From the NCBI RefSeq assembly GCF_023169965.1, contig NZ_AP025592.1, positions 2,604,001 through 2,668,000 on the forward strand: a DNA stretch of 64,000 nucleotides. Reading direction: 5' to 3'. The notes below the pieces were generated by a model. That model saw only the letters and a program-made list of their open reading frames with translations, was not told the origin of the DNA and searched no databases. The stretch comes from Anaeromyxobacter paludicola. GTDB taxonomy: Bacteria; Myxococcota; Myxococcia; Myxococcales; Anaeromyxobacteraceae. Made by a program: the position numbers and the translations under genes. Positions 35,514 through 54,187 of this stretch are shown here, piece after piece. The number at the start of each line of letters is the position of its first letter. Positions within the stretch are counted from its first letter, which is position 1.

Positions 35514-36932
35514 TTAGTCCTTGCCGTGGCACTTGTTGCACAGCGAGCGCTGGAAGGCGCCGAAGTCGGTCGCCGTGCGGCCGTAGTACGCGGCCTGGAG
35601 CGCCGTCGCGCCGCGGGCCTGCGTGTCGACGAGCGCGTTCGCGTTCGTGATGAACGTGTCGTCGTTGTTCCAGCGGACCATGCTGCTGAAGCCAGACGCG
35701 TGGGCGCGGTGGCAGGAGAGGCAGGTCACGTTCGACTTGTCGGTGGCGGTGAAGATGTTGTTCGCCGCCGGGTTCGCCAGCTTGCCCAGATCGGACACGG
35801 CGCCGCTGTTGCCGGTGACCGAGATGATCTTCGCGCTCTCGAAGGGCACCAGCGAGGTGTACTGGTCACCCGTCCCGGTGAAGACGCCGCTCGAGACGTA
35901 GGTGTTGTACACGTTGAACTGGCCGGGCTTGAGGGAGGCGTTGTTGCCGGCCGGGTGCTTCAGGCCGGTGCCGCCGAGCGCGCCGGACAGGTAGTTGTCC
36001 ATGTGGATGTTGGTGTGGCAGTTGCGGCACCACTCCGCCATGCCGTTGCCGTAGGCGACGCGCACTTCCTTCGACCGATCGAGACCAGCGCCCGTTTCGG
36101 CCTTGTTGTAGTCCGTCGGCGCGACGGCCACCGGCGGGTTGTAGGTGAAGGGCGAGGCCGGGTTGGAGGCCGGAGCGTAGCCCTTGCCGCCGAGGAGGCG
36201 GTAGGCGCCGATAGCCTGGCCAGCGGCCGGCAGGTTGCCGTACGAGCCCGAGGAGTAGATCGGGGCCGTGATGGCGGTGTTGTCGCTGCCCGGAGCGGTC
36301 GGGCCGGCCCAGTTCCAGGTGGTGCCGGTCGCATCGGTCTGCATGCGCGTGCGGCCGTGCGGATCGTGGCAGCTCGAGCAGGAGAAGACCTTCTGCCCGG
36401 TGGCGTCGAACGACAGCGTGCCGCCCGGGGCGGTCAGCAGCGTGTCGGCCGGGATCACGAAGTCCGCGGCGACGATGTTGTGCCCGTGACGGTTCTGGAC
36501 GTCCGAGGCGTTGCCGCCGCGCAGGAGCCAGCCGAAGTCGCCGCCCGGCGAGTAGTTCATGTTGGCGAAATCGGTGGCCGGACCGGTGTTGACGATCACA
36601 TAGGGCCTGGTGCTGCCGCCCGCCGTCGTATCGCCGTGGCAGATGAGGCAGGTGGAGGACTGATCCGCCCCCTGCAGCAGGAACGCCGGGACCGCGTCGT
36701 TCCAGGGGTTCACCTTGGTCGAGCGCGCCACGCCGTTGGAGGCGTTGTGCATCACGTGGCAGCCGTCGCAGGCGGCGACGCCGCCGGCGTGGAAAGTGCC
36801 CGTCTTCGAGGTGGCGACTCCGTTGAACCAGCCCGTTGCCGTGACGTCCTTGCCCGTGACCGCGGTCTGAGCATTCGCTCCGAACGCGAAGGCGGCGATG
36901 ATGGCCGCCGCCCACTGCATCCTGATTCTCAT
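35514..36932 (-). CDS. omcS: OmcS-like hexahaem nanowire cytochrome
   Basis: 472 residues, signal peptide cleaved after ANA (residue 21). Six CXXCH motifs in OmcS order: CDGCH (55-59), CLICH, CSSCH, CRNCH, CLSCH, CNKCH (465-469). Sequence blocks that I know from Geobacter OmcS are retained: FHAGGVAACDGCHVMHN, LLQGADQSSTC, YSPGGDFGWL, HGHNIVAADF, SCSSCHDPHG, IGAYRLLGGKGY, VAYGNGMAEWC, LKHPAGN, CLSCHRAHASGF, AAYYGRTATDFGAFQRSLC. The His residues that bridge haems in the OmcS filament are in these blocks. ATG 36932 has GGGGAG 6 nt upstream; longer in-frame starts lie in the leader. Likely polymerises outside the cell into a conductive filament. Confidence 0.93.
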   Translation of the reverse strand: MRIRMQWAAAIIAAFAFGANAQTAVTGKDVTATGWFNGVATSKTGTFHAGGVAACDGCHVMHNASNGVARSTKVNPWNDAVPAFLLQGADQSSTCLICHGDTTAGGSTRPYVIVNTGPATDFANMNYSPGGDFGWLLRGGNASDVQNRHGHNIVAADFVIPADTLLTAPGGTLSFDATGQKVFSCSSCHDPHGRTRMQTDATGTTWNWAGPTAPGSDNTAITAPIYSSGSYGNLPAAGQAIGAYRLLGGKGYAPASNPASPFTYNPPVAVAPTDYNKAETGAGLDRSKEVRVAYGNGMAEWCRNCHTNIHMDNYLSGALGGTGLKHPAGNNASLKPGQFNVYNTYVSSGVFTGTGDQYTSLVPFESAKIISVTGNSGAVSDLGKLANPAANNIFTATDKSNVTCLSCHRAHASGFSSMVRWNNDDTFITNANALVDTQARGATALQAAYYGRTATDFGAFQRSLCNKCHGKD

Positions 36933-37055
36933 TTGATACTCCCCAAGCAACGCCACCGATCGCCCCAGCGATCGGTGTCGGGTGATTGCAGGAACTTCGC
37001 TGAGCTTCTTCCCCAAACGAACTGCGGATTCGGCTCAACAGCAGGGCACGGTTGC
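36933..37055 (-). promoter_or_regulatory. omcS 5' leader with stem-loop before the ribosome-binding site
   Basis: Expected transcript start near 37055 from the sigma-54 promoter gives a 5' UTR of about 123 nt. At 36954-36977 a perfect 10-bp stem CACCGATCGC/GCGATCGGTG with a 4-nt loop ends 21 nt before the ATG, just ahead of GGGGAG. The same plan (sigma-54 promoter, 120-nt leader, final hairpin, GGGGAG) recurs at 37671-37791 and 40996-41118, although the primary sequence here is different. Confidence 0.6.
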
Positions 37056-37065
37056 CAGGCAGCTC

Positions 37066-37080
37066 AGCAACGACCGTGCC
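37066..37080 (-). promoter_or_regulatory. sigma-54 promoter of omcS
   Basis: On the minus strand the sequence is GGCACGGTCGTTGCT, matching GGCACG-N4-TTGC(A/T) perfectly. An inverted repeat GGCACGGT/ACCGTGCC (37045-37052 with 37073-37080) overlaps the promoter and could bind a regulator. Confidence 0.8.
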
Positions 37081-37645: not shown

Positions 37646-37660
37646 GGCACGAAAGCTGCT
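37646..37660 (+). promoter_or_regulatory. sigma-54 promoter of the 12-haem cytochrome gene at 37792
   Basis: GGCACGAAAGCTGCT: the -24 element is perfect, GC is at -12 with correct spacing, and the -12 box is CTGCT. The predicted start is near 37671. Confidence 0.7.
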
Positions 37661-37670
37661 TGGCGACCCC

Positions 37671-37791
37671 GTGACTCACCAGCACGGCCACGGGATACCG
37701 CGAGCGCTGGGGTTGGGCCCCCGGCGCTCCAAAGCACGAGCAGTGAACGCACGGCACGCGCACGTCGCGCGTGACCATGGGGAGAAGGCAA
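37671..37791 (+). promoter_or_regulatory. structured 5' leader, copy 1
   Basis: About 121 nt. A 26-nt block at 37673-37698, starting GACTCACCAGCACGG, is identical to 40998-41023. Hairpin I (37702-37729) has outer arms GAGCGC/GCGCTC. Hairpin II (37755-37773) has arms CACGCGC/GCGCGTG and ends 18 nt before the ATG, followed by TGGGGAGA. In copy 2 hairpin I has a different sequence but still pairs, which argues for selection on structure. Confidence 0.65.
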
Positions 37792-40590
37792 ATGCGTCGT
37801 ATCTCGCTGGCACTGGCGCTCATGAGCGCCATCGCCGTGACTGGCTGCGGAGGGAGCAAGTCCTCCTCGAGCGCCGGGACGGCAAAGGGAGTTGGAGGGG
37901 CGTACTTCTACGTCAACATCTTCACCGCGCCGACGGCCGGCACCATCACCTCGGCCGACGGCAAGATCAACTGCGGCGGCGGGCAGACCGCCTGCGGCAC
38001 CAACGGGCAGACCCGCTACAGCTGGTACACCGACTCCACCAACACCACCGCGACCACGGTGGTGCTGACCGCCACGCCGCTCGCCGGCAAGGCGTTCGTG
38101 GGCTGGGGCGGCGACTGCACCGGCAACGGCACCTGCACGCTCACGGCGGGCAGCGACAAGTCGGTCGTCGCGATCTTCGCCGTCGCCGGGCAGCAGGGTC
38201 ACACGAACTTCCTCGACCCTGCCACCCACTCGGCGGCCTACGCCGCGTTCGCCGCCGGCGACAAGACGGCTCCGCAGTGCGTCAACTGCCACGGCGCCGC
38301 GCTCACCGGCATGGGCATCGCGCCCTCGTGCTTCACCTGCCACGACGTGAAGAGCGCCACGGCGAATCCGTTCGGCAACCACGGCGACACGACCGCGGCG
38401 GCGTGGGGCATTCACGCTCCCTCCGGCTGGAGCCAGGCCTGCCAGCGCTGCCACACCAGCCAGGGCTTCCAGGACTACATGGGCGCGCTCGCGGCGCCCA
38501 CCGAGTCGAGCCCGTCGGCCGACTACCTCGGCACCACGTTCCTCTCCACCAACACCCTCGTGGCCGGCACCGGCGTCGCGAACTCCTACGCCACCGGCTC
38601 GCTGCAGTGCCAGACCTGCCACAACAGCGTCACCGACCCGCTCTCGGCCGGCGTGACGAAGCTCACCTTCCCCTCCGGCGTGCAGGTCACGACCGACAAG
38701 GTCACCGCCCTCTGCGGCCAGTGCCACGAGGCGCGTGAGTCCACGGTCAGCATGAACACCCTCGTCGGGACGACGGCGGCGGACGCGCAGATCAACGCGG
38801 CTGGCACCAGCTTCAAGAACCCGCACTACCGCGGCGCCGCCGCCACCATCTACGGGTCGGTGGCCCAGGGCTGGGCGCAGTACGCCGGCAAGATCTACAC
38901 CGGCCAGAACCTCCACGGCGGGGTGGCCAGCTGCAACACCTGCCACGACGTGCACACCGGCGAGGTCGCCGGCGTCGTGAGCGCGAACACCTGCGGCAAG
39001 TGCCACTTCAAGGCCGACGGGACGCCGGTCGCGAACTTCGCCGAGCTCGAGGCCAACCGGCAGTACGGCTTCGAGGGCGACATCGACGGCAACGGCAAGG
39101 TCGAGGGTCTCGACGTCGAGATCAACGGCCTCAAGGCGACCCTCCTCGCCGCCATCCAGGCCTACGCGGTGAACGTGGCCGCCCAGCCGGGCATCTGCTT
39201 CGACGACGCCACCTACCCGTACTTCCTCAAGCACACCGGCGCTTCCGGCGCCTGCTCCTCCGCCGAGCTCACCGCGGCCGCGGCGTACAAGGCCTTCACG
39301 CCGCGCCTGATGCGCGCCGCCTACAACCTGAAGTTCGCCTCGACCGAGTTCGGCGCCTGGGCGCACAACCCCCGCTATGCGATCGAGATCCTCTACGACG
39401 CCATCACCGATCTCAACGCCGCCCTCGGCGTGAACGCCGTGCCGTTCAACGGCGTCCGCAGCTTCCAGGGCCACTTCGGCGGCTCCGAGGTCAAGGCGGC
39501 GGGCTCCGACGCGTTCACCGACTGGAACTCGACCGGCACCATCCCGGCGGCCTGCTCCCAGTGCCACGGCGCCCAGGCCGGCCTCACCAACTTCATCGCC
39601 AACCAGAACACCGCGCTGACCACCCCGTCGATCACCGGCTTCCAGTGCACCACCTGCCACGTGGCGGTGAACGCGAGCGCGGCGAACTTCAAGGGCATGC
39701 GCACCGACGTGACGACCCTCTACTTCCCGCCGGCCAAGACCGACCCGACCCAGCAGACGACGCTGGCCGCGACGGTCTTCCCGAACGCGAAGGACCGGGT
39801 CTGCGCCTCCTGCCACACCGGCCGCGAGAACAAGACCACCATCGACCTCGCCATCGGCACCAAGACGCCTGGGACGTTCTCGGTCTCCTTCAAGAACCCC
39901 CACTACCTCGGCGCCGCCGGCGTGATGTTCGGCTCGACGACCCACATGCTGTACGAGTACCCGGGCCAGACCTACGCCACCACGCCGGTGTTCTACGGCA
40001 CGACGGGCGCCGCTCCCGGCCCGTACGGCTCGCCGCACGGCGGCGGCTGCACCGGCTGCCACAACCCCCAGGGCACGCAGCACGGCTTCGGCATCGATCT
40101 CGCCACGACGGTTCCCGGCGGGACGTACTACGGCGTGCCCAACACGCTGGCGTGCGACGGCTGCCACACCAACGGCTCGCACGGTGACCACCGCCTCGAG
40201 CCGGTGAAGGCGAACGTGGCCGCCCTGGCCGCCGAGCTGCTCGTGAAGATCAACGCCTACCAGGTGGCCGGCGGCCAGAACGCGGTCTGCTACGCCGGCG
40301 GCGCCTATCCGTACTGGTACGTGGGCACGGTGCACCCCGGCGGCCAGTGCGACGCGACGGAGACCACCGGCTACGGGTCGAAGTGGGACGCCAAGACCGC
40401 CAAGGCCGTCTTCAACTACCAGTGGTCGCAGAAGGAGCCGGGCGCCTACGCGCACAACTACGACTACGTCGCGCAGGCGCTGATCGACTCCATCATGGAC
40501 CTCGATGCGGCCGCGGTGCTGCCGTGCGACGCGCACGACTCGCTCTGCATCAGCGGGGTCGGCGGGAGCACGCTCATCACCCGCCCGTGA
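37792..40590 (+). CDS. 12-haem outer-membrane lipoprotein cytochrome with InlB-repeat-like N-terminal module
   Basis: 932 residues. Lipobox IAVTGC (Cys19) followed by GGSKSSSSAG. Residues about 33-115 are the beta module FYVNIFTAPTAGTITSADGKINCG ... LTATPLAGKAFVGWGGDCTGNGTCTLTAGSDKSVVAIF, then the first haem pair CVNCH...LTGMGIAPSCFTCH. Twelve CXXCH in total (last CDGCH). The paired segments GAWAHNPRYAIEILYDAI and GAYAHNYDYVAQALIDSI, and repeated SFKNPHY motifs, show an internal duplication seen in Geobacter outer-membrane cytochromes. It is transcribed alone from a sigma-54 promoter and ends at a strong terminator. Likely an outer-surface metal reductase or filament docking protein. Confidence 0.9.
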   Translation: MRRISLALALMSAIAVTGCGGSKSSSSAGTAKGVGGAYFYVNIFTAPTAGTITSADGKINCGGGQTACGTNGQTRYSWYTDSTNTTATTVVLTATPLAGKAFVGWGGDCTGNGTCTLTAGSDKSVVAIFAVAGQQGHTNFLDPATHSAAYAAFAAGDKTAPQCVNCHGAALTGMGIAPSCFTCHDVKSATANPFGNHGDTTAAAWGIHAPSGWSQACQRCHTSQGFQDYMGALAAPTESSPSADYLGTTFLSTNTLVAGTGVANSYATGSLQCQTCHNSVTDPLSAGVTKLTFPSGVQVTTDKVTALCGQCHEARESTVSMNTLVGTTAADAQINAAGTSFKNPHYRGAAATIYGSVAQGWAQYAGKIYTGQNLHGGVASCNTCHDVHTGEVAGVVSANTCGKCHFKADGTPVANFAELEANRQYGFEGDIDGNGKVEGLDVEINGLKATLLAAIQAYAVNVAAQPGICFDDATYPYFLKHTGASGACSSAELTAAAAYKAFTPRLMRAAYNLKFASTEFGAWAHNPRYAIEILYDAITDLNAALGVNAVPFNGVRSFQGHFGGSEVKAAGSDAFTDWNSTGTIPAACSQCHGAQAGLTNFIANQNTALTTPSITGFQCTTCHVAVNASAANFKGMRTDVTTLYFPPAKTDPTQQTTLAATVFPNAKDRVCASCHTGRENKTTIDLAIGTKTPGTFSVSFKNPHYLGAAGVMFGSTTHMLYEYPGQTYATTPVFYGTTGAAPGPYGSPHGGGCTGCHNPQGTQHGFGIDLATTVPGGTYYGVPNTLACDGCHTNGSHGDHRLEPVKANVAALAAELLVKINAYQVAGGQNAVCYAGGAYPYWYVGTVHPGGQCDATETTGYGSKWDAKTAKAVFNYQWSQKEPGAYAHNYDYVAQALIDSIMDLDAAAVLPCDAHDSLCISGVGGSTLITRP

Positions 40591-40614
40591 GCTCGTAGCT
40601 CATACCTGTAGTCC

Positions 40615-40646
40615 GGCCCCCGCGGATCCGTCCGCGGGGGCCTTTT
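40615..40646 (+). terminator. intrinsic terminator after the 12-haem gene
   Basis: Perfect 11-bp stem GGCCCCCGCGG/CCGCGGGGGCC, 6-nt loop ATCCGT, then TTTT. It starts 25 bp after the stop codon at 40590 and isolates this gene from the next sigma-54 unit. Confidence 0.95.
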
Positions 40647-40970
40647 CATTCTGAGTGAATGACCCCTTCGCGCGAGGGTCGGTCCCTCCGATGGACTAGT
40701 CCTCGTCCGCGACGCCTCCCGCGGGCCCGCGAGCCGAGCTCGGTTCGTTCCGAAGTGAACGGGACAGGCAGGAACGCCCTGTGCCGAGCCCGAATCGTGG
40801 CGTTTGCGCCCCAGCCACTCCCGACCGTTCTTGCGAAGTTCACCCGGAGTCACTGTCGAGCCACCGCCCTCCGCGCGCCCCAGCCCATGCGGCAAATCCC
40901 CCAAGACACGACGCCACCCCCTTCCGGAGTTTCCGGTGGCAACCCGCGCGTTTGCGCCGTCACCGCGCGG

Positions 40971-40985
40971 GGCACGTTCGTTGCT
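40971..40985 (+). promoter_or_regulatory. sigma-54 promoter of the OmcA/MtrC-like gene
   Basis: GGCACGTTCGTTGCT matches the consensus fully (GGCACG-N4-TTGCT). Predicted start near 40996, giving a leader of about 123 nt. The remainder of 40647-40970 is non-coding. Confidence 0.8.
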
Positions 40986-40995
40986 AAGCCGCTCC

Positions 40996-41118
40996 CCGAC
41001 TCACCAGCACGGCCACGGGATACAGGCGAACACCGGGTGGGCACCCGGGGTTCGGCAGCAAACCGCAGCGAACGTAAGGGCACGCGCCTCGTCGCGCGTG
41101 CCACTGGGGAGACAGCAC
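40996..41118 (+). promoter_or_regulatory. structured 5' leader, copy 2
   Basis: About 123 nt. It shares the 26-nt 5' block (40998-41023) with copy 1. Hairpin I (41027-41054) has arms CGAAC/GTTCG plus inner CCGGGT/ACCCGG, different in sequence from copy 1 yet fully paired. Hairpin II (41079-41102) has perfect 9-bp arms GGCACGCGC/GCGCGTGCC and is followed by TGGGGAGA and the ATG. The coding start (MRRISLALAL) is also shared. Confidence 0.65.
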
Positions 41119-44100
41119 ATGCGTCGTATCTCGTTGGCACTGGCGCTCATCGGTGCCGTGGCCGTTTCCGGATGCGGGAGGAGCGGTTCCTCCGCCTCGT
41201 CCGGCCAGAAGGGCGCGAACACCGATACGTTCAACATCAACATCTACCAGGCGCCGGTCGGCGGCTGGATCACCTCGGCAGACAGCCGGATCAACTGCGG
41301 CGCCTCCGATCTGGGCACCCCGGTTGCGGACGCTGACGGCGTCCTCCACTCGACCCCGACATACATCACCGGCCACGCCGTCTGCCCGAAGCAGACGACC
41401 TACCCCTACGGCACCAGCGTGACGTTCACCGCGACCGCCGACACGGGCTTCACCTTCATCACCTGGGCGGGTGACTGCGCCGGCTCGGCCGCCACCTGCA
41501 CGCTCACCGGCAAGGCCGACGCGGCCCCGATCGCGATCTTCGCGAAGGCAGGCTCGGCGGGCCACGCGGCCGTCTTCTCGTCCGCGGAGCACGGTGTCGC
41601 GTTCGGGAAGTTCCTCCAGGGCGACGCGACCGCCCCGAAGTGCACCAACTGCCACGGCCCGACGCTGCTCGGCGCCGGCATCGCGCCGGCCTGCAGCCCG
41701 TGCCACCAGGCTGCCAACGCCGCGAACGTGACTGCCGGTCTCGAGTCCTGCGCCAAGTGCCACGCGGCTGCCGGTACCACCGGCATCAACAACGGCGCGG
41801 ACCACCAGGCGCTCTACAACAAGTTCGCGCACCCGACGAACGCCACCCTGAACGCGTCCATCGTCAGCGTCAGCACCAACACGACGTCGCAGGTCGCGAC
41901 CGTGACCTTCACCCTGACCAAGAACGGTCAGCCTTACACGGGCGATGTGACCAAGCTCGGCCAGAAGACCGTGTACGCGGCCCGGTTTGACCGCGCCACC
42001 GGCAAGGTCGTCGAGTACTTCTCGCTGTCGAAGCTCGCGCCCACCGCGACGCCCGGCACGTTCACGGCCAAGAACAATGCGACGCCGGCGCCGGCGACCC
42101 CGCCCGTCACGCCGGTCCTGGCGACTTTCGCGCCCGAGGCTTCGGACGCGTTCGTCTACGCGTACTTCGCCGAGAACCCGACCCTCTGGCCGAACCTCAA
42201 GAACTACAAGATCTACGGGAACGTCACGAGCGCCGCGATGACCTTCAAGGCCACCGGCCAGACGGATCCGTGGACCTACACCTCCACCGCCAACGTCGCG
42301 GGCTGCCAGAAGTGCCACCCGACGCCGTACATGAAGCACGGTTACCGCGCCGCCGTCGTGGCCGGCCTGCCCGACTTCATGGCCTGCAAGGCCTGCCACG
42401 CCGACACCCGCGTGGGCGAGGACTTCATCTTCCAGCTCACCTACGACAACTTCCCTTGGATCGCCGCCAACGGGGAGAACTACACCCCTGCGATCGAGGC
42501 GCAGTACGCCTACAACGCGAGCGTGATGAACGACACGCACATGGCGCACTCCGGCGAGATCAAGTACCCGCAGGAGATGTCGAACTGCGTGGTCTGCCAC
42601 GAGGGTAACCTCGCCACCATTACCGCGGACCAGAACTTCAACGGGAAGGTGTGCAAGAGCTGCCACCCGACGACCTCGCCGGTCGATGCCGCGGCGCCGA
42701 GCTTCGCGAACGTGACCGACGGCGCCAAGCTGGGTCAGAAGCTCGCGTACCACAACTTCAACTGGCAGAACGGCACGGTCCTCGAGGGTACCGCCCCGAA
42801 TCAGACCGAACTGGCCTGCACCGCCTGCCACAGCGATTCCGCTAAGGACGTCAACTGTGACGCCAACTACAACTGCACCGTGGATCAAACCAGCGGCGCG
42901 ATCGACGGTAAGGGCCCGTTCATGTACGGATCGTACGTCCCGCTGTTCAAGGACATCCACTCCGGTCTGAACAAGGCCATCTACGCTGCCGACGGGAGCC
43001 GCTACTCGGCCAGCATGCAGACGACCGTTGGCACGACCTCGTTCGCGTCCAACAAGCTCACGCTCGCGTTCAGCGTCAGCAACGTCCCGTCCAACGTGAC
43101 GATCAAGCCGACTGTCACGGCCAGCCTCTACGGCTACGACACGAAGGACTTCGTCGTCAGCGGCCACAGCAGCCAGTTCTCGGACAAGACGCCGAACCTC
43201 GAGTTCAGCGAGGGCGCCTGCCTCCGCGGCACCGGCGGGACCACCGGCGTGCCCTGCAAGCCGTCGAACACGGCGCGCCTCAACGTCACCCCGCTCGCCG
43301 CGGCCGGCAACTCCAACTGGACGGTCACCATCGACCTGTCGACGTGGGCTACCAAGCTCTCGGACGGCTCGGTCAAGCGTATCGAGGTCGGCTTCCTGCC
43401 GGACGCCACGCTAGTGACTGGCGTTGCTCCGAACACCGTCTCGACCTCGATCGCGATCTCCGGCCTGGCCGTGACCTACGACCTCGGCGCCGGCGCGGTC
43501 GTCCAGGACACCGTCGGCAAGGGCGCCAACGCCATCGTCGACGCGGCCAAGTGCAACAACTGCCACGACGCGCTCGGCACCACCTTCCACAGCCCGAGCT
43601 ACGGCTCTGCGGGCGTGGTCGGCTGCCGCCTCTGCCACTTCGTTGGCACCGGTGGGTCGCACCTCGAGATGCAGTCGCGCTCGATCGACTCGTACGTCCA
43701 CTCGATCCACTCGTTCCAGGCGTTCGACATCGCGAACGTCAACTTCGCGGATCCCGTCGCGGCGCTCGAGTATGAGGATCACATCACGGCCACGTACCCG
43801 ATGTTCACGACGCTGAACTGCGAGTCGTGCCACACCGCGGGTTCCTACGGCGTGCCCGACCAGAAGAAGTCGATGCCCGGCATCCAGTCGGCCTCCGCCT
43901 CGATCACCGGCAAGACCCGGGCGATCAACGGCGTGCCGAGCGTCGTCACCGGCCCTGCCTCCAGGGCCTGCGGCGGCTGCCACCGCGCCGAGCTCATCAA
44001 GGAGGACGCGGCCGGCGCGCTCAACGCGTTCGACGATCACGCTGGCGCGTCGTTCGGTTACCGCCAGGTCTCCGATGCGGCGCCGAAGACCATCACCGAC

Positions 44101-44136
44101 AAGTGGAACGACATCGTCATGAAGGTGCTCCCGTAG
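41119..44136 (+). CDS. OmcA/MtrC-family 12-haem outer-membrane lipoprotein cytochrome
   Basis: 1005 residues; lipobox VAVSGC (Cys19). After a Ser-rich linker comes the beta module FNINIYQAPVGGWITSADSRINCG ... FTATADTGFTFITWAGDCAGSAATCTLTGKADAAPIAIF and the haem pair CTNCH...LLGAGIAPACSPCH. Then follow a beta-rich domain (LNASIVSVSTNTTSQVATVTFTLTKNGQPYTGDV) and the OmcA/MtrC-like haem core with two more beta segments. The C-terminal stretch GCRLCHFVGTGGSHLEMQSRSIDSYVHSIHSFQ is characteristic of that family. I count 12 CXXCH. OmcA/MtrC proteins are terminal outer-surface reductases for metals and humics. Transcribed alone from sigma-54, with leader copy 2. Confidence 0.9.
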   Translation: MRRISLALALIGAVAVSGCGRSGSSASSGQKGANTDTFNINIYQAPVGGWITSADSRINCGASDLGTPVADADGVLHSTPTYITGHAVCPKQTTYPYGTSVTFTATADTGFTFITWAGDCAGSAATCTLTGKADAAPIAIFAKAGSAGHAAVFSSAEHGVAFGKFLQGDATAPKCTNCHGPTLLGAGIAPACSPCHQAANAANVTAGLESCAKCHAAAGTTGINNGADHQALYNKFAHPTNATLNASIVSVSTNTTSQVATVTFTLTKNGQPYTGDVTKLGQKTVYAARFDRATGKVVEYFSLSKLAPTATPGTFTAKNNATPAPATPPVTPVLATFAPEASDAFVYAYFAENPTLWPNLKNYKIYGNVTSAAMTFKATGQTDPWTYTSTANVAGCQKCHPTPYMKHGYRAAVVAGLPDFMACKACHADTRVGEDFIFQLTYDNFPWIAANGENYTPAIEAQYAYNASVMNDTHMAHSGEIKYPQEMSNCVVCHEGNLATITADQNFNGKVCKSCHPTTSPVDAAAPSFANVTDGAKLGQKLAYHNFNWQNGTVLEGTAPNQTELACTACHSDSAKDVNCDANYNCTVDQTSGAIDGKGPFMYGSYVPLFKDIHSGLNKAIYAADGSRYSASMQTTVGTTSFASNKLTLAFSVSNVPSNVTIKPTVTASLYGYDTKDFVVSGHSSQFSDKTPNLEFSEGACLRGTGGTTGVPCKPSNTARLNVTPLAAAGNSNWTVTIDLSTWATKLSDGSVKRIEVGFLPDATLVTGVAPNTVSTSIAISGLAVTYDLGAGAVVQDTVGKGANAIVDAAKCNNCHDALGTTFHSPSYGSAGVVGCRLCHFVGTGGSHLEMQSRSIDSYVHSIHSFQAFDIANVNFADPVAALEYEDHITATYPMFTTLNCESCHTAGSYGVPDQKKSMPGIQSASASITGKTRAINGVPSVVTGPASRACGGCHRAELIKEDAAGALNAFDDHAGASFGYRQVSDAAPKTITDKWNDIVMKVLP

Positions 44137-44232: not shown

Positions 44233-44252
44233 CGGCGGGTCTGGGCGGGCGT

Positions 44253-44870
44253 CCCGACCGAGAGAACCGATCCGCGGACCTCTCGGGCGTCCCGACCGAG
44301 AGAACCGATCCGCGGACCTCTCGGACGCCCCGACCGAGGGAACCGGCGCCCCGACCGAGAGAACCGATCCGCGGACCTCTCGACCGGACTTCGGACTCCT
44401 CCCCTCGCGCCTGGCGCGAGCTGACCGCCGCAGGAGGCAAGGCCGGCGCCTCGAGTCTCGGCGTTGGGGCGCCCCGACCGAGAGAACCGATCCGCGGACC
44501 TCTCGACCGGACTTGGCGGCCCCGACCGAGAGAACCGATCCGCGGCGCCCCGACCGAGAGAACCGATCCGCGGACCTCTCGACCGGACTTCGGACTCCTC
44601 CCCTCGCGGCTGGCGCGGGGCGCCCCGACCGAGAGAACCGATCCGCGGACCTCTCGACCGGACTTCGGACTCCTCCCCTCGCGCCTGGCGCGAGCTGACC
44701 GCCGCGGGAGGCAAGGCCGGCGCCTCGAGTCTGGCGCGCCCCGACCGAGAGAACCGATCCGCGGACCTCTCGACCGGACTTCGGACTCCTCCCCTTGCGC
44801 CTGGCGCGAGCTGACCGCCGCAGGAGGCAAGGCCGGCGCCTCGAGTCTCGGCGTTCGCCTCCCCAGGATG
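44253..44870. repeat. mosaic cluster of REP-like repeats
   Basis: Eight near-identical copies of CCGACCGAGAGAACCGATCC followed by GCGG begin at about 44255, 44293, 44352, 44475, 44523, 44551, 44626 and 44742, plus a shortened copy near 44331. Most continue with ACCTCTCGACCGGACTTCGG, and several carry a second module, 44400-44470-like, with GACCGCCGCAGGAGGCAAGG and GGCGCCTCGAGTCT. CGAGAG...CTCTCG forms an imperfect hairpin in each unit. Spacing is irregular (28 to 130 bp), unlike CRISPR. A diverged copy lies at 47026 beside a RAYT transposase gene. No gene is seen in 44233-45072. Confidence 0.85.
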
Positions 44871-45072: not shown

Positions 45073-47013
45073 GTGAAGCTCGAGTCCGATGGCAGTGCTC
45101 TCGTCGAGAGCGAGAGGCGGCTCCGCACCGTCGTGAGCGCGGTCACCGCGGGCATCGTCTTCAAGGACCGGACCGGCGCGATCCTGGAGTGCAACCCCGC
45201 CGCGGAGAGCATCCTGGGGATCACCCGCGACCCGGGGACGGGCCAGCTGGCGGCCGACCCCAGGATCGGCGCCATCCGTGAGGATGGGACCCCGTACCGC
45301 GTCGAAGACTGGCCGGTGTTCGAGGCCATCCGGACCGGGCGTCCCGCTCGCGACGCCGTCATGGGCTTCACGCAGCCTGGGGCAGCCGTCCGGTGGGTTC
45401 GCGTCAACGCCGTTCCCCTGGCCGAGCCCGGGGCGGCGCCGTACGCGGCCGTCGTCTTGCTCGACGACATCAGCGCGGAGCGAGAGGCCGGCCTGGAGCT
45501 GCGCCGGCGCGAGAGGCGGCTCAACGTGGCCCTGGAATGCGCCGGTCACTACTACTGGGAGGAAGACATCGCCTCGGGGCGCTTCGTCGCGGGGCAGCCG
45601 TGGACGCTCCTCGGCTATGCGCCAGGCGAGATCGAGCCGACCAGCCGCGCGTGGCTGGCCCTCGGCTACCCCGGCGACGAGGAGCGACGCAAGGCCCTCA
45701 AGCTGGCCCACCTGGAGGGCCGGAGTCCCTCGTACCGCGCGGAGTATCGTGCTCGGGCCAGGGACGGCTCCTGGCGCTGGTTGCTGACGTGTGGGCGCGC
45801 CCTCAGGGACGAGCCGGGTGGCGCGGTGATGCTCGCAGGCACCATCACCGACATCACGGAGTCGAAGCAGCTCGAGAGCCAGCTGCGGCACGCCGATCGA
45901 CTCGCGAGCGTGGGAACGCTCGCGGCGGGCGTCGCCCACGAGGTCAACAACCCCCTCACCTACGTGATGGCCAACCTCGACTTCGTCGATGACGCCCTCG
46001 CGCGAGCGGAGGCCGGCGAGGGCCCGGCGGTCCCGGCGAGCGAGCTGCGCGTGGTCATCGGGGAAGCCGCGGCGGGCGCCGAGCGGGTCAAGCAGATCGT
46101 CAAGGGCCTTCGGCACTTCGTGAGAGCCCCCCGCTCTCCCGAGCGGCACCTCGTCGATCCGCGGCTCGAGGTCGACGCCGCGATCGCGCTGGCGCGCCAC
46201 GAGGTGACCGCGCGCGCCGAGCTCCGGGTGGACGTCCCCGAGGAGCTCCCGAGGATCGTGGCCGGGGAGCACGAGATCTCGCAGGTGCTCGTCAACTTGC
46301 TGATGAACGCGGGGCAAGCCATCCCCGAGGGTCACGCCGGCTCGAGCACGGTGTCGTTGAGCGCCACGGTCGCCGGCGAGCGGGTCTGCTTCACGGTGAG
46401 GGATACCGGGACCGGCATCCCGGACGCCGACCTCTCCCGGATCTTCGACCCGTTCTTCACGACCAAGCCGGTCGGTTCGGGGACCGGCCTCGGGCTCTCG
46501 GTCTGCCACGGGATCGTGACCTCCCTGGGCGGCACGATCGAGGTCACCACGGAGCTCGGTCACGGCAGCACGTTTCGCGTGTGCCTGCCGGTCGCGCCCG
46601 CCCAGGGTCAGGAGCTGGCCGCCCCCGTCGAGGCGCCGACCTCCGCCCGGGGACGGGTCCTGATCATCGACGACGAGCCCCTGGTGGCGCGCGGCATGGC
46701 CCGCCTCCTCGCCAAGGACCACGAGGTCGCCGTCGCGGGCTCCGCGGCCGACGCGCTGAAGCGGATCCACTCCGGCGAATCGTGGGACGTGATCCTGTGT
46801 GACCTGATGATGCCGCAGATGGATGGGGTGGACTTCGAGGCGGCGCTCGCCACCTCGTGCCCGGCCCTCGTCCCCAGGATCGTCTTCATCACGGGCGGCG
46901 CGTTCACGGAGCGGGCCCAGGCGTTCCTGGCGGGCGACCGGAGGCGGATGTACAAGCCGGTGGTGCCGTCGGAGCTGCGGGCGCTCATCGCCTCCATGCT
47001 CATGGGCCGCTAG
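45073..47013 (+). CDS. PAS-PAS hybrid sensor histidine kinase with C-terminal receiver domain
   Basis: 646 residues from GTG 45073, which has GGAGG 7 nt upstream. Two PAS domains (about 15-125 and 140-260) precede the HisKA domain with phospho-acceptor His289 in GVAHEVNNPLTYV. The ATPase domain shows VLVNLLMNAGQAI, DTGTGIP and GTGLGLSVCHGIV, and the C-terminal receiver has Asp577 in LCDLMMPQMDG. There is no membrane segment, so it senses a cytoplasmic signal. No response regulator gene is adjacent. It lies between the repeat cluster and the RAYT gene. A link to the nearby sigma-54 cytochrome promoters is possible but unproven. Confidence 0.92.
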   Translation: MKLESDGSALVESERRLRTVVSAVTAGIVFKDRTGAILECNPAAESILGITRDPGTGQLAADPRIGAIREDGTPYRVEDWPVFEAIRTGRPARDAVMGFTQPGAAVRWVRVNAVPLAEPGAAPYAAVVLLDDISAEREAGLELRRRERRLNVALECAGHYYWEEDIASGRFVAGQPWTLLGYAPGEIEPTSRAWLALGYPGDEERRKALKLAHLEGRSPSYRAEYRARARDGSWRWLLTCGRALRDEPGGAVMLAGTITDITESKQLESQLRHADRLASVGTLAAGVAHEVNNPLTYVMANLDFVDDALARAEAGEGPAVPASELRVVIGEAAAGAERVKQIVKGLRHFVRAPRSPERHLVDPRLEVDAAIALARHEVTARAELRVDVPEELPRIVAGEHEISQVLVNLLMNAGQAIPEGHAGSSTVSLSATVAGERVCFTVRDTGTGIPDADLSRIFDPFFTTKPVGSGTGLGLSVCHGIVTSLGGTIEVTTELGHGSTFRVCLPVAPAQGQELAAPVEAPTSARGRVLIIDDEPLVARGMARLLAKDHEVAVAGSAADALKRIHSGESWDVILCDLMMPQMDGVDFEAALATSCPALVPRIVFITGGAFTERAQAFLAGDRRRMYKPVVPSELRALIASMLMGR

Positions 47014-47025
47014 AACGCCGGCGGC

Positions 47026-47092
47026 CCCGACCGAGAGAACCGATTGGCGGACCTCCCGACCGGATTGCGGACCCCTTCCGCCGCGCTACCAC
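47026..47092. repeat. diverged single copy of the REP-like repeat next to the RAYT gene
   Basis: CGACCGAGAGAACCGATTGG and then CGGACCTCCCGACCGGATTG follow the same order as the units at 44253-44870, with a few substitutions. It is 50 bp upstream of the RAYT start. RAYT transposases act on the REP sequences beside their own genes, so this copy is a candidate substrate. Confidence 0.75.
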
Positions 47093-47141
47093 GCTCTGCA
47101 CTGCGGTCCGCCGCGGCACGACTCCTGCCCTGCCGGCGCGC

Positions 47142-48035
47142 ATGACCGCGCCACGCCAGGTGCTCCCCGGCACCACCTACCTCGTCACCCGCCGCTGTTC
47201 CGAGCGCCGCTTCTTCCTGCGCCCTTCCCCGCTCACCAACGCCATCTTCCTCTACGTCCTCGCCGTCGCGGCCAGGCTGTACGGCGTCCGGCTCCACGCC
47301 TTCTGCGTCCTCTCGAACCACTACCACCTCGTCCTCACCGACCCCCACGCCCGCCTCCCCGCCTTCATGCAGTACCTGGACGGCCTGGTGGCCCGCGCGG
47401 TCAACGCCGCGCTCGGCCGCTGGGAGGGCTTCTGGTCAGCGGAAGCGTCCTACAACGCGGTCTCCCAGGCCGACTCCGACGACGTCGTCCGGAAGATCGC
47501 CTACGTCCTCGCCAACCCCGTCTCCGCCGGCCTGGTGCGCAGCGGCCGCGACTGGCCCGGCCTCTGGTCGTCCCCCGAGCAGCTCGGCACCGCTACCCTG
47601 ACGGCCGCCCGGCCAAAGGTGTTCTTTCACCCCTGCGGCGCCCTGCCGGAGTCGGTCTCCCTGCAGCTCACGCTTCCGCCCGGCTTCTCCTGCCCCGAGG
47701 AGCTGCGGGCCCGGGTGGAGTCAGCGATGACCGAGCTCCCGGAGCGACGGCGCACCGAAGGAAAGGTGCGCGGGTTCCTGGGCCGGGCCGCAGTGCTCGC
47801 CCAGAGCCCCTTCGGCCGGCCCGGTACCGGCGAGCCGCGGCGGAAGCTCAGCCCCCGCTTCGCCGCCGCCGACCCGGTGAAACGGGTCGAGGCCATCAGC
47901 CGCTGGCGCACGTTCCTCGATGGCTATCGTCGGGCTCTGGCGTCCTGGCGGTCCGGCGTGCGCAATGTGCTCTTCCCTCCCGGCACCTACCAGCTCCGCC
48001 TCGAGCACCGCGCACCCTGCGCGGCGCCGGGGTGA
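47142..48035 (+). CDS. REP-associated tyrosine transposase (RAYT, Y1 HUH family)
   Basis: 297 residues. The N-terminus PGTTYLVTRRCSERRFFLRPS and the HUH motif in CVLSNHYHLVLT (His60, His62) mark the TnpA_REP/Y1 transposase group. The helix with the catalytic Tyr is probably DVVRKIAYVLANPV. The C-terminal 150 residues are a basic extension seen in this proteobacterial subgroup. RAYTs are single-copy domesticated relatives of IS200/IS605 transposases that mobilise REP palindromes by single-strand cleavage. A repeat copy directly upstream and a cluster 2.3 kb away fit this. Confidence 0.88.
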   Translation: MTAPRQVLPGTTYLVTRRCSERRFFLRPSPLTNAIFLYVLAVAARLYGVRLHAFCVLSNHYHLVLTDPHARLPAFMQYLDGLVARAVNAALGRWEGFWSAEASYNAVSQADSDDVVRKIAYVLANPVSAGLVRSGRDWPGLWSSPEQLGTATLTAARPKVFFHPCGALPESVSLQLTLPPGFSCPEELRARVESAMTELPERRRTEGKVRGFLGRAAVLAQSPFGRPGTGEPRRKLSPRFAAADPVKRVEAISRWRTFLDGYRRALASWRSGVRNVLFPPGTYQLRLEHRAPCAAPG

Positions 48036-51798: not shown

Positions 51799-54087
51799 TC
51801 AATAGATCAGCTCGACGTGGCAGTTGTAGCAGGCCTGGTCGTACGCGGAGACATAGGGCGTCCCCCAGACCGGGTTCTCGGCCAGGTGGCAGGCGACGCT
51901 CGTGCAGGTCTTGGTGGCGGGATCATACCGGGACCTCGAGAGACTGAACGAGATCGTCTGGCCCCCGGGACTGCGCGTCACGTACGCCGGCCAATCCGGC
52001 GATCCGACGATCGGCATCAGCCAGTACGGCTGGGTGGGCGTGTTGGGCGCCGCGGGGAGCCAGCTGATCGACGGGAGCGTGGTCCGGGGGTCGAAGGCCA
52101 CGTCCCTCGTCCCGTTCACGTGCCGCAGCGGCAGCACCTTGCCGGTCTTGAGCGGGGCCTTGGCGTTGGTCCCGCCGTGGCACGAGGTGCACTGGAGCCG
52201 CTGGTACCAGAGGCCGCTCAGCCTGTAGGGATCGCCGCCCGGCAGCTGATAGTTGCCGGTGGTGTCGAGGTAGTAGAAGCCGCTCGGGCCGGTGTTGGCC
52301 GGGTCGGTCGTCTCGAAGTGGCAGGTCTGGCAGGTGATGGGAGCGGAGTCGGCGCCGGATCCCGAATTGCCTCCGTGGTAGCTCGCCAGCCACGGCCCGA
52401 TGAGCCCGGCGAAGTGGCCGAACTCGAAGCCGTCGTCCGCGAGGTTGACGTGGCTGTTGGCCGTCGCGCTGCCCGCGCCGCCCGAGGTGTAGCGCGGCGG
52501 GTTGTCGTGGCAGCCGTTGCAGGCGAGGTGCGCGCCCGACGTCCACGCCGGCGCGGTCACGAACTGCGCGCCCTGCCGCCCGCTCGAGTGGCAGTAGACG
52601 CCGCTGCAGGTGCCGCTCGCCTTGTCGTAGGTGGCCGTGGTCGCGTTGCGCGCCTTGAGCGACCCCGCGGGCGCGGCCGCCTCGTAGAGGACCACCTCCA
52701 CCTTCCCGTCCATGTGCTTCGCGGGGTCCACCGGGTGGCACTGCCCGCAGCCGAAGCCGTAGACGGCGGGCGCGGTGGTGGCGGTCGCGTCGGGGAAGCG
52801 GTCCTGCAGGACCTTGGTGTCGCCGTAGCCGCTCGTCGCCTGCGCCGTGGTCAGCCCGTAGTGCGCGGCGTGCGCGCCGGTGGTGGGCGGATAGCCGTGG
52901 CAGGCGGCGCAGCCGCTCCCGCCGGTGCCGCCGCCGCTGAAGTCGAGGACGCCGTTCACGTGCTTCCCCCCGGCGATGTCGATGGTGCCGTCGGCGAGGA
53001 CGGTCTTGGAGTGGCACCCGGCGCAGCCGGCCGGGGCGCTCCCGACGGCGGGGTGAGGATCGGGCGGCGGCATGGCGTGGCAGGAGCCGCACTGGATGCC
53101 GCTGCTCGACCACGCAGGCTGGGCCGGCCCGTGGCAATAGGTGCTGCAGGTGCCGCTCGCCGCGTCGTAGCTGCCGAGGGAGGCCGGGAGCGAGGCCTGG
53201 CCGGCGCCGGCGAGGGTCACCTGGGCGCGGGCCGACTTGCCGCGCACGTGCCCGAGGTCGGCCGGCACGGCGTGGCAGGTGGCGCACGAGAAGGGGCCGG
53301 CGAGGGACAGGCCCGCGCCGTTCGTCCCGAGCAGGTGCGCCTGGTGCGCGCCGGTGCGGGCGGGCGCGGCCGTGCCCGTGAGCCGCTGCGAGAGCGCGTC
53401 GGGGGGCGCCGACCAGGCGCCGTGCGCGGCCGCGTCGTAGCCGGCCTTGCTCTGGACCGTGCGGGCGCCGTGGCAGAAGGAGCAGTTGGTCTGCCAGCCC
53501 GTCCAGCCGGCCTGCGCGTGGCACTGGTGGCAGGAGGGCGCGATGCCCGCGCCGGAGAGCGAGGCGCCGTGGCAGCTCGGGCAGTTGAGCGCGCCCGCGA
53601 CCTTGCCGAGGTAGTCGAGGTAGGCGGGCCCGTGGTCGGCCGGGCTGAGGTAGTTGGGATGGCCGCTGCCTCGCGGGCCGAAGATGGCCATCACCGTCTT
53701 GTCCGCGCCCGCCCGGAGCGTGCAGGTGCCGTTGCCGCCGCAATCACCCGACCAGCTCGTGAAGGCGTTGTCGCCCTGCGGCGTGGCGGTGAGGACGACC
53801 GCCTGGCTCCAGGGGATCGCCACCGGCCCGCAGCGATCGGCGCCCGGGTAGTAGACGGGCACCTGGCGCAGGACGCCATTGGCGTCGCGCACGGTCGTCA
53901 TCGCCGACGCGCCGCAGCTGATCCCGCCCACGTCGGAGGCGACGATGCCGCCCACCGGGGTCCGGACCGTCACGTTGTACGAGACGCCGACTACCCCTTC
54001 GGAGCTACTACTGGCGGGACGCTCATTGCGACCGCACGCCACCGCCGTCGACAACAGGACAATCCACGCAAACGCGTTGCGGCGCAT
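51799..54087 (-). CDS. CxxxxCH/CxxCH-family outer-membrane lipoprotein cytochrome (15 haem sites)
   Basis: 762 residues; lipobox LLSTAVAC (Cys18) then GRNERPASSSS. The N-terminal beta module YNVTVRTPVGGIVASDVGGISCG ... LTATPQGDNAFTSWSGDCGGNGTCTLRAGADKTVMAIF is followed by haem pair CPSCH...LSGAGIAPSCHQCH. I count 12 CXXCH, one CX3CH (CSTYCH) and two CX4CH (CSGVYCH, CTSVACH). The pattern CSGVYCHSSG...CNGCHDNPPRY is that of the Geobacter CxxxxCH/CxxCH domain family. GGGGGAGG precedes the ATG. Driven by a sigma-54 promoter divergent from the next cytochrome gene. Confidence 0.9.
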   Translation of the reverse strand: MRRNAFAWIVLLSTAVACGRNERPASSSSEGVVGVSYNVTVRTPVGGIVASDVGGISCGASAMTTVRDANGVLRQVPVYYPGADRCGPVAIPWSQAVVLTATPQGDNAFTSWSGDCGGNGTCTLRAGADKTVMAIFGPRGSGHPNYLSPADHGPAYLDYLGKVAGALNCPSCHGASLSGAGIAPSCHQCHAQAGWTGWQTNCSFCHGARTVQSKAGYDAAAHGAWSAPPDALSQRLTGTAAPARTGAHQAHLLGTNGAGLSLAGPFSCATCHAVPADLGHVRGKSARAQVTLAGAGQASLPASLGSYDAASGTCSTYCHGPAQPAWSSSGIQCGSCHAMPPPDPHPAVGSAPAGCAGCHSKTVLADGTIDIAGGKHVNGVLDFSGGGTGGSGCAACHGYPPTTGAHAAHYGLTTAQATSGYGDTKVLQDRFPDATATTAPAVYGFGCGQCHPVDPAKHMDGKVEVVLYEAAAPAGSLKARNATTATYDKASGTCSGVYCHSSGRQGAQFVTAPAWTSGAHLACNGCHDNPPRYTSGGAGSATANSHVNLADDGFEFGHFAGLIGPWLASYHGGNSGSGADSAPITCQTCHFETTDPANTGPSGFYYLDTTGNYQLPGGDPYRLSGLWYQRLQCTSCHGGTNAKAPLKTGKVLPLRHVNGTRDVAFDPRTTLPSISWLPAAPNTPTQPYWLMPIVGSPDWPAYVTRSPGGQTISFSLSRSRYDPATKTCTSVACHLAENPVWGTPYVSAYDQACYNCHVELIY

Positions 54088-54172
54088 TCGAAGCCTCCCC
54101 CGAACAGGCGAGCGCCGCGCACTTCACGCTGGGAGAGCGCACGGCGAGCCCAGACCCGAGCGGCTTTGCGGC

Positions 54173-54187
54173 GCAACCTTCGTGCCA
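54173..54187 (-). promoter_or_regulatory. sigma-54 promoter of the cytochrome gene at 51799-54087
   Basis: On the minus strand TGGCACGAAGGTTGC: full match to TGGCACG-N4-TTGC. Expected start near 54161 gives a 74-nt leader. It shares the 344-bp intergenic region 54088-54431 with a divergent promoter; no gene is seen between them. Confidence 0.8.

Follow-up and report, generated by a model that had tools for sequence, protein, structure and literature searches.

A structured mRNA leader of narrow distribution before multihaem cytochrome genes of Anaeromyxobacter and its relatives

What is known of post-transcriptional control over extracellular-respiration cytochromes comes mainly from the cGAMP-sensing GEMM riboswitches of Geobacter. 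In a 64,000-nt stretch of the genome of the soil bacterium Anaeromyxobacter paludicola (contig NZ_AP025592.1; hereafter called the window), two multihaem cytochrome genes, designated here gene 1 and gene 2, are preceded by leaders of similar layout (Table 1), which raises the question whether these leaders represent an RNA element of their own, the remnant of a duplication or a feature with another role. Both genes are preceded by sigma-54-type -24/-12 promoters, from which, assuming the usual spacing of these elements, we take transcription to start at positions 37671 (gene 1) and 40996 (gene 2).

Table 1. Features of the two leaders, their genes and related sites (positions in the window)
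Feature	Position	Strand	Remarks
Sigma-54-type -24/-12 promoter, gene 1	37646-37660	+	GGCACG-N4-CTGC; consensus match
5' conserved block, gene 1 (predicted mRNA 5' end)	37673-37698	+	Contains CAYCRGC...GGCCACGG
Hairpin I, gene 1	37702-37729	+	Loop TGGGC at 37714-37718; folding, covariation
Hairpin II, gene 1	37753-37776	+	Folding; directly upstream of ribosome-binding site
Ribosome-binding site, gene 1	37778-37785	+	TGGGGAGA; sequence
Gene 1	37792-40590	+	932-aa lipoprotein-like cytochrome, 12 CXXCH motifs
Hairpin III, gene 1	37815-37830	+	In reading frame; spans codons 8-13, from third base to third base
Sigma-54-type promoter, gene 2	40971-40985	+	GGCACG-N4-TTGC; consensus match
5' conserved block, gene 2	40998-41023	+	Identical to gene 1 block
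Hairpin I, gene 2	41028-41053	+	Loop TGGGC at 41038-41042; folding, covariation
Hairpin II, gene 2	41079-41102	+	Folding
Ribosome-binding site, gene 2	41105-41112	+	TGGGGAGA; sequence
Gene 2	41119-44136	+	1005-aa OmcA/MtrC-like cytochrome, 12 CXXCH motifs
Hairpin III, gene 2	41142-41157	+	Codons 8-13; predicted with low probability here (0.01)
omcS-like gene	ATG at 36932	-	Sigma-54-type site at 37066-37080
Sigma-54-type site	54172-54186	-	Upstream of related cytochrome gene (start 54087) without leader

An initial annotation had described the leaders as a pair with a common 26-nt block, two hairpins and an identical ribosome-binding site adjoining hairpin II, and sequence search and folding bear this out. 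The block, GACTCACCAGCACGGCCACGGGATAC, is found at just two places in the genome when up to three mismatches are allowed, and has no match in 100 dinucleotide shuffles of the window. Folding predicts hairpins I and II in both leaders, each of which is more stable than most of its shuffled versions (z -2.5 and -2.4; 1 and 4 of 200 shuffles equally stable). The annotation had also claimed compensatory change in hairpin I between the two copies. One double compensatory pair is indeed present, but the claim was overstated, as seven of the ten aligned pairs are identical, one has a one-sided change and one is broken. True covariation of hairpin I is visible only once further members are added.

The reading that the annotation had named as fatal to its proposal, i.e., a plain recent duplication, does not fit the distribution of identity, which drops both after codon 13 and upstream. 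The leaders of genes 1 and 2 are 76-80% identical and codons 1-13 reach 90% (third bases 85%); from codon 14 onward, identity at the three codon positions falls to 56%, 66% and 58%, and over the 200 bases that precede the promoters it amounts to 39-41%. The gene 1 protein aligns over its full length with o4863 of A. oryzae (38% identity), and that of gene 2 with s34823 of A. oryzisoli (43%) and o4856 of A. oryzae (39%). Since the full-length counterparts differ and only the N-terminal ~200 residues are common to the two proteins, genes 1 and 2 are old relatives that have kept their 5' end, and their leaders are not a plain recent duplication. In o4856 and s34823, which align over their full length, the leaders are 82-85% identical vs. 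51-60%, by codon position, from codon 14 onward. As the strongly conserved element is present in a single copy in A. oryzisoli, this difference argues for selection.

Homologous leaders in which pairing is preserved are present in other genomes. Seven additional leaders of the same layout, all located before related lipoprotein cytochromes, were found, so that nine are known: two in the window, five in A. oryzae, one in A. oryzisoli and one in genome G013, which represents a third genus. They are thus spread over four genomes and three genera of one family. When the regions upstream of protein homologues were inspected, three genes of A. oryzae and one of A. oryzisoli proved to have the leader, and G013 a diverged form of it. 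A model of the two window sequences (R1) made only these two copies stand out when run on the window. A model of six sequences (R2) added two members from A. oryzae, which scored 62.6 and 49.6 bits; the best non-member match among 147 genomes of the class reached 33.3 bits. Model R3, built from all nine members and therefore finding these by construction, yielded nothing else in 24 genomes of the family, where the next best match scored 20.9 bits. In a scan of the phylum, 4 of 195 genomes matched at E <= 0.001. The gap between 49.6 and 33.3 bits and the small number of matching genomes indicate an element that is real but narrow. A scan with a degenerate pattern of contigs from 84,980 species gave 32 stretches, among which only those of A. 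oryzae and A. oryzisoli stood out by model score (next best, 31.9 bits); this pattern fixes the base after the loop and would miss leaders like that of gene 1.

Several candidates were rejected. With three mismatches allowed, the pattern of the 5' block gave eight hits outside the own genome in the 24 family genomes vs. three for the reversed pattern used as control, and none of the eight coincides with any leader found later. A gene in G010 (L018/L148) contains GCACGGCCACGG and has a similar start, and was excluded at 20.9 bits with no recognizable hairpin I. A match in G008 (L106) was also excluded, as it looks like a chance match in coding sequence.

The nine sequences were aligned by sequence, without fitting to a structure (alignment A8). 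The leader has a conserved, covarying fold consisting of hairpins I and III. The loop of hairpin I reads [UC]GGGC, its first base being U in eight members and C only in that of G013, and double changes occur at five of the ten stem pairs; several pairs of the G013 stem differ from those in the window and still pair. Hairpin III, which is absent from the initial annotation and was suggested by the consensus fold, lies within codons 8-13 and covaries at synonymous positions. Its closing pair links the third base of codon 8 to that of codon 13 and reads G-C, G-C, C-G, C-G, G.A, U.G, U-A, C-G and C-G in the nine members. These bases are paired in eight of them, with four pair types (permutation p 0.012), and they constitute the best supported of 190 third-base pairs. 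A hairpin in a coding region with paired synonymous changes is unusual in itself.

Over hairpins I and III together, 92.4% of the cells pair and 6 of the 16 pairs show double changes, although such changes are few and not independent, given that the family numbers just nine and a single genome contributes five. The covariation score is 0.234 vs. 0.127 +/- 0.026 in shuffles that take no account of the relatedness among the members; none of 500 shuffles scored as high, and two of 500 matched the number of double-change pairs. Controls in which the pairing was slid reached at most 0.049. The claim of a structured, covarying leader is upheld by these results. When hairpin I is considered alone in eight members, 78 of 500 shuffles attain its covariation score, which shows that much of the covariation comes from the G013 member and hairpin III. 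The consensus fold has a modest z, of -2.08 for eight members (5 of 200 column shuffles as low), -1.5 for four diverse members (12 of 200) and -3.75 for all nine with the 5' part of one member cut off (0 of 200). Whole-leader folds vary among members, and the predicted probability of hairpin III is low in w2 (0.01) and in o4859 (0.34). Hairpin II is a GC-rich stem in all members, and its pairing is retained with a shifted register; as a GC-rich stem in GC-rich DNA, it is weak evidence.

With hairpin III in codons 8-13, hairpins II and III frame the site where the ribosome lands. Perhaps, this is passive architecture only, with hairpins that keep the ribosome-binding site open in a GC-rich mRNA and protect its 5' end, and with neither switching nor a dedicated factor involved. 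The position of the two hairpins on either side of the ribosome-binding site and start codon would agree with this explanation, and so would codons 2-7, which are richer in AT (CGT CGT ATC TCG TTG GCA) in most members. However, it leaves the near-invariant GGCCA block and the loop sequence of hairpin I unexplained, and the predicted openness of the ribosome-binding site, which pairs weakly with codons 4-5 in the consensus fold, varies from only 0.09 to 0.54 among members. We consider it unlikely. Neither the consensus fold nor the predicted probabilities revealed a clearly conserved alternative pairing that hides the ribosome-binding site. Pairing of GCCA in the 5' block with UGGC in codons 6-7 was seen in the consensus fold and was set aside; across eight members its predicted probability spans 0.00 to 0.98, and GGCCA is missing from the G013 member. 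Inspection of the alignment showed no terminator-like stem with a T-run in the leaders, which makes control by early termination less likely.

By consensus match, a GG[CT]ACG-N4-[CT]TGC site precedes all nine leaders, with the -24 and -12 elements at the right distance. The window contains five strict sites of this type, and a cytochrome gene begins shortly after four of these. At L103, L104 and L105, TG[AC]GTGATTTCCCCCA or near versions of it lie farther upstream than the sigma-54 site, at a distance of ~86-109 bases from the leader block, and this sequence is a possible activator-binding site in several members. The enhancer box TGGGG-N6-CCCCA, assessed with a simple box score, reached significance in few of them.

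For the omcS-like gene, a leader of equal length with a hairpin at the same place had been reported. This holds for the layout, as its leader is ~123 nt long and has a 10-bp hairpin at 36954-36977 near the ribosome-binding site, but not for membership of the family, as the leader models do not match it; the likeness is one of layout, from which kinship does not follow. Elsewhere in the window, at 44246-44853 just after gene 2, lies a repeat array built on GACCGAGAGAACCGATCCGCGGACCTCTCG, the 24-nt core of which is present in seven exact copies, all in the array and none elsewhere in the genome. Close to the array, a frame on the plus strand (46857-48035) resembles a REP-associated tyrosine transposase in its motif.

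The leader appears to belong to a larger unit, in which the sigma-54-type site, the leader and the first ~190 residues of the protein behave as one module. All nine proteins begin with M[RS]R[IV]S[LT]A, and the module is found on differing cytochrome bodies. Many genomes of the family, the own genome with one example among them, encode OmcA/MtrC-type bodies that lack the N-terminal segment, and the six upstream regions examined of such genes contain neither a sigma-54-type site nor a leader. Genes in the window and elsewhere that encode the N-terminal segment with another signal peptide have no leader either; the leader is thus tied to signal peptides that begin with M[RS]R[IV]S. In A. oryzae (L103 and L104), the N-terminal ~190 residues of neighboring cytochromes are up to 73% identical, whilst the remaining parts cannot be aligned end to end, and this likeness suggests exchange of the 5' module within the genome.

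Such observations, i.e., a module on different bodies, its absence upstream of bodies without the N-terminal segment and the A. oryzae proteins that resemble each other at one end, could also be explained by recombination spreading the module, or by the block being a protein-binding site in the DNA near the transcription start, with an RNA fold devoid of function. Several results are difficult to reconcile with this explanation: identity drops sharply after codon 13, hairpins I and III show paired changes, and the element is strongly conserved in A. oryzisoli, where it has no second copy. We rate it as improbable.

The best reading seems to be that the leader is a new, narrowly distributed cis-acting element operating at translation start or on mRNA stability. 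We infer that it acts as RNA, that translation or stability is affected and that a shared factor exists. In the proposed mechanism, the module would extend from the sigma-54-type promoter via the leader to the codons that specify the signal peptide of surface-type multihaem cytochromes. Their mRNA would start with a conserved, mostly single-stranded segment, followed by hairpin I with its near-invariant G-rich loop and by hairpin II, which adjoins the ribosome-binding site. A shared trans-acting factor, either a protein or a small RNA, may recognize the 5' segment together with the loop of hairpin I and would jointly set the translation or decay of these cytochrome mRNAs. That the leaders constitute a small family of structured cis-acting elements served by such a factor has, in our estimation, about an even chance of being correct. 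The window leaders are closer to each other than to those of their A. oryzae counterparts, and the counterparts elsewhere share a different version, which makes a shared trans-acting factor plausible; gene conversion would produce the same pattern of near-identical leaders in two old relatives. The defined loops, stems and synonymous codons offer exact targets for mutation.

At the gathering score, Rfam release 15 has no match in the window, nor in six loci that together include the remaining seven members and the leaders of the own genome. No description of the leader was found in Rfam release 15 or in the accessible part of the openly licensed literature. Given the lack of a match to catalogued RNA families, the leader is probably a new control element and a new family of a known kind, i.e., structured bacterial mRNA leaders. 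The GEMM-I or c-di-GMP-I riboswitch (RF01051) includes the cGAMP-sensing variants located before Geobacter cytochrome genes. The initial annotation had seen no GEMM consensus in the leaders, and the RF01051 covariance model agrees, as it has no match in them. This model gave no match above the cut-off in any of the four leader-bearing genomes (the own genome, G003, G004 and G013), whilst 3 of the 24 family genomes do contain one (G001, G002 and G007), all without the leader.

A riboswitch that controls cytochrome translation in response to a ligand, such as haem, iron or a nucleotide signal, would be in keeping with a structured leader with a near-invariant loop and a covarying stem, and with its position before extracellular-respiration-type genes, where Geobacter has GEMM riboswitches. 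However, the conserved part is short, a single simple hairpin with no evident multi-helix pocket, pairing over the ribosome-binding site shows no clearly conserved alternative, no Rfam family matches and the distribution is very narrow. This explanation is very doubtful. A bolder proposal is that extracellular electron transfer has here a regulatory RNA of a new class, which would begin at the mRNA 5' end and reach as far as the signal-peptide codons. Such an RNA would respond to a ligand or factor, jointly set the translation of several surface cytochromes and take the place of the absent cGAMP GEMM riboswitches. We regard this as unlikely. A second structured leader in relatives of Anaeromyxobacter, unrelated to GEMM, would mean that a further lineage has evolved an RNA layer of its own for genes of this kind.

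Compared with known systems, the leaders resemble those controlled by CsrA/RsmA in having a hairpin with a G-rich loop in the 5' leader and another hairpin near the ribosome-binding site. The hallmark of CsrA/RsmA targets is GGA in hairpin loops, however, and in the alignment the loops of hairpins I and II lack it. With sigma-54-dependent cytochrome promoters, all nine leaders have the type of site in common, whereas other cytochrome genes, among them the omcS-like one and the minus-strand gene with its start at 54087, combine such a site with the absence of the leader. Compared with GEMM-I, including its cGAMP-sensing variants in Geobacter, the leader differs in fold and sequence, but both are structured leaders of cytochrome genes in metal-reducing deltaproteobacteria.
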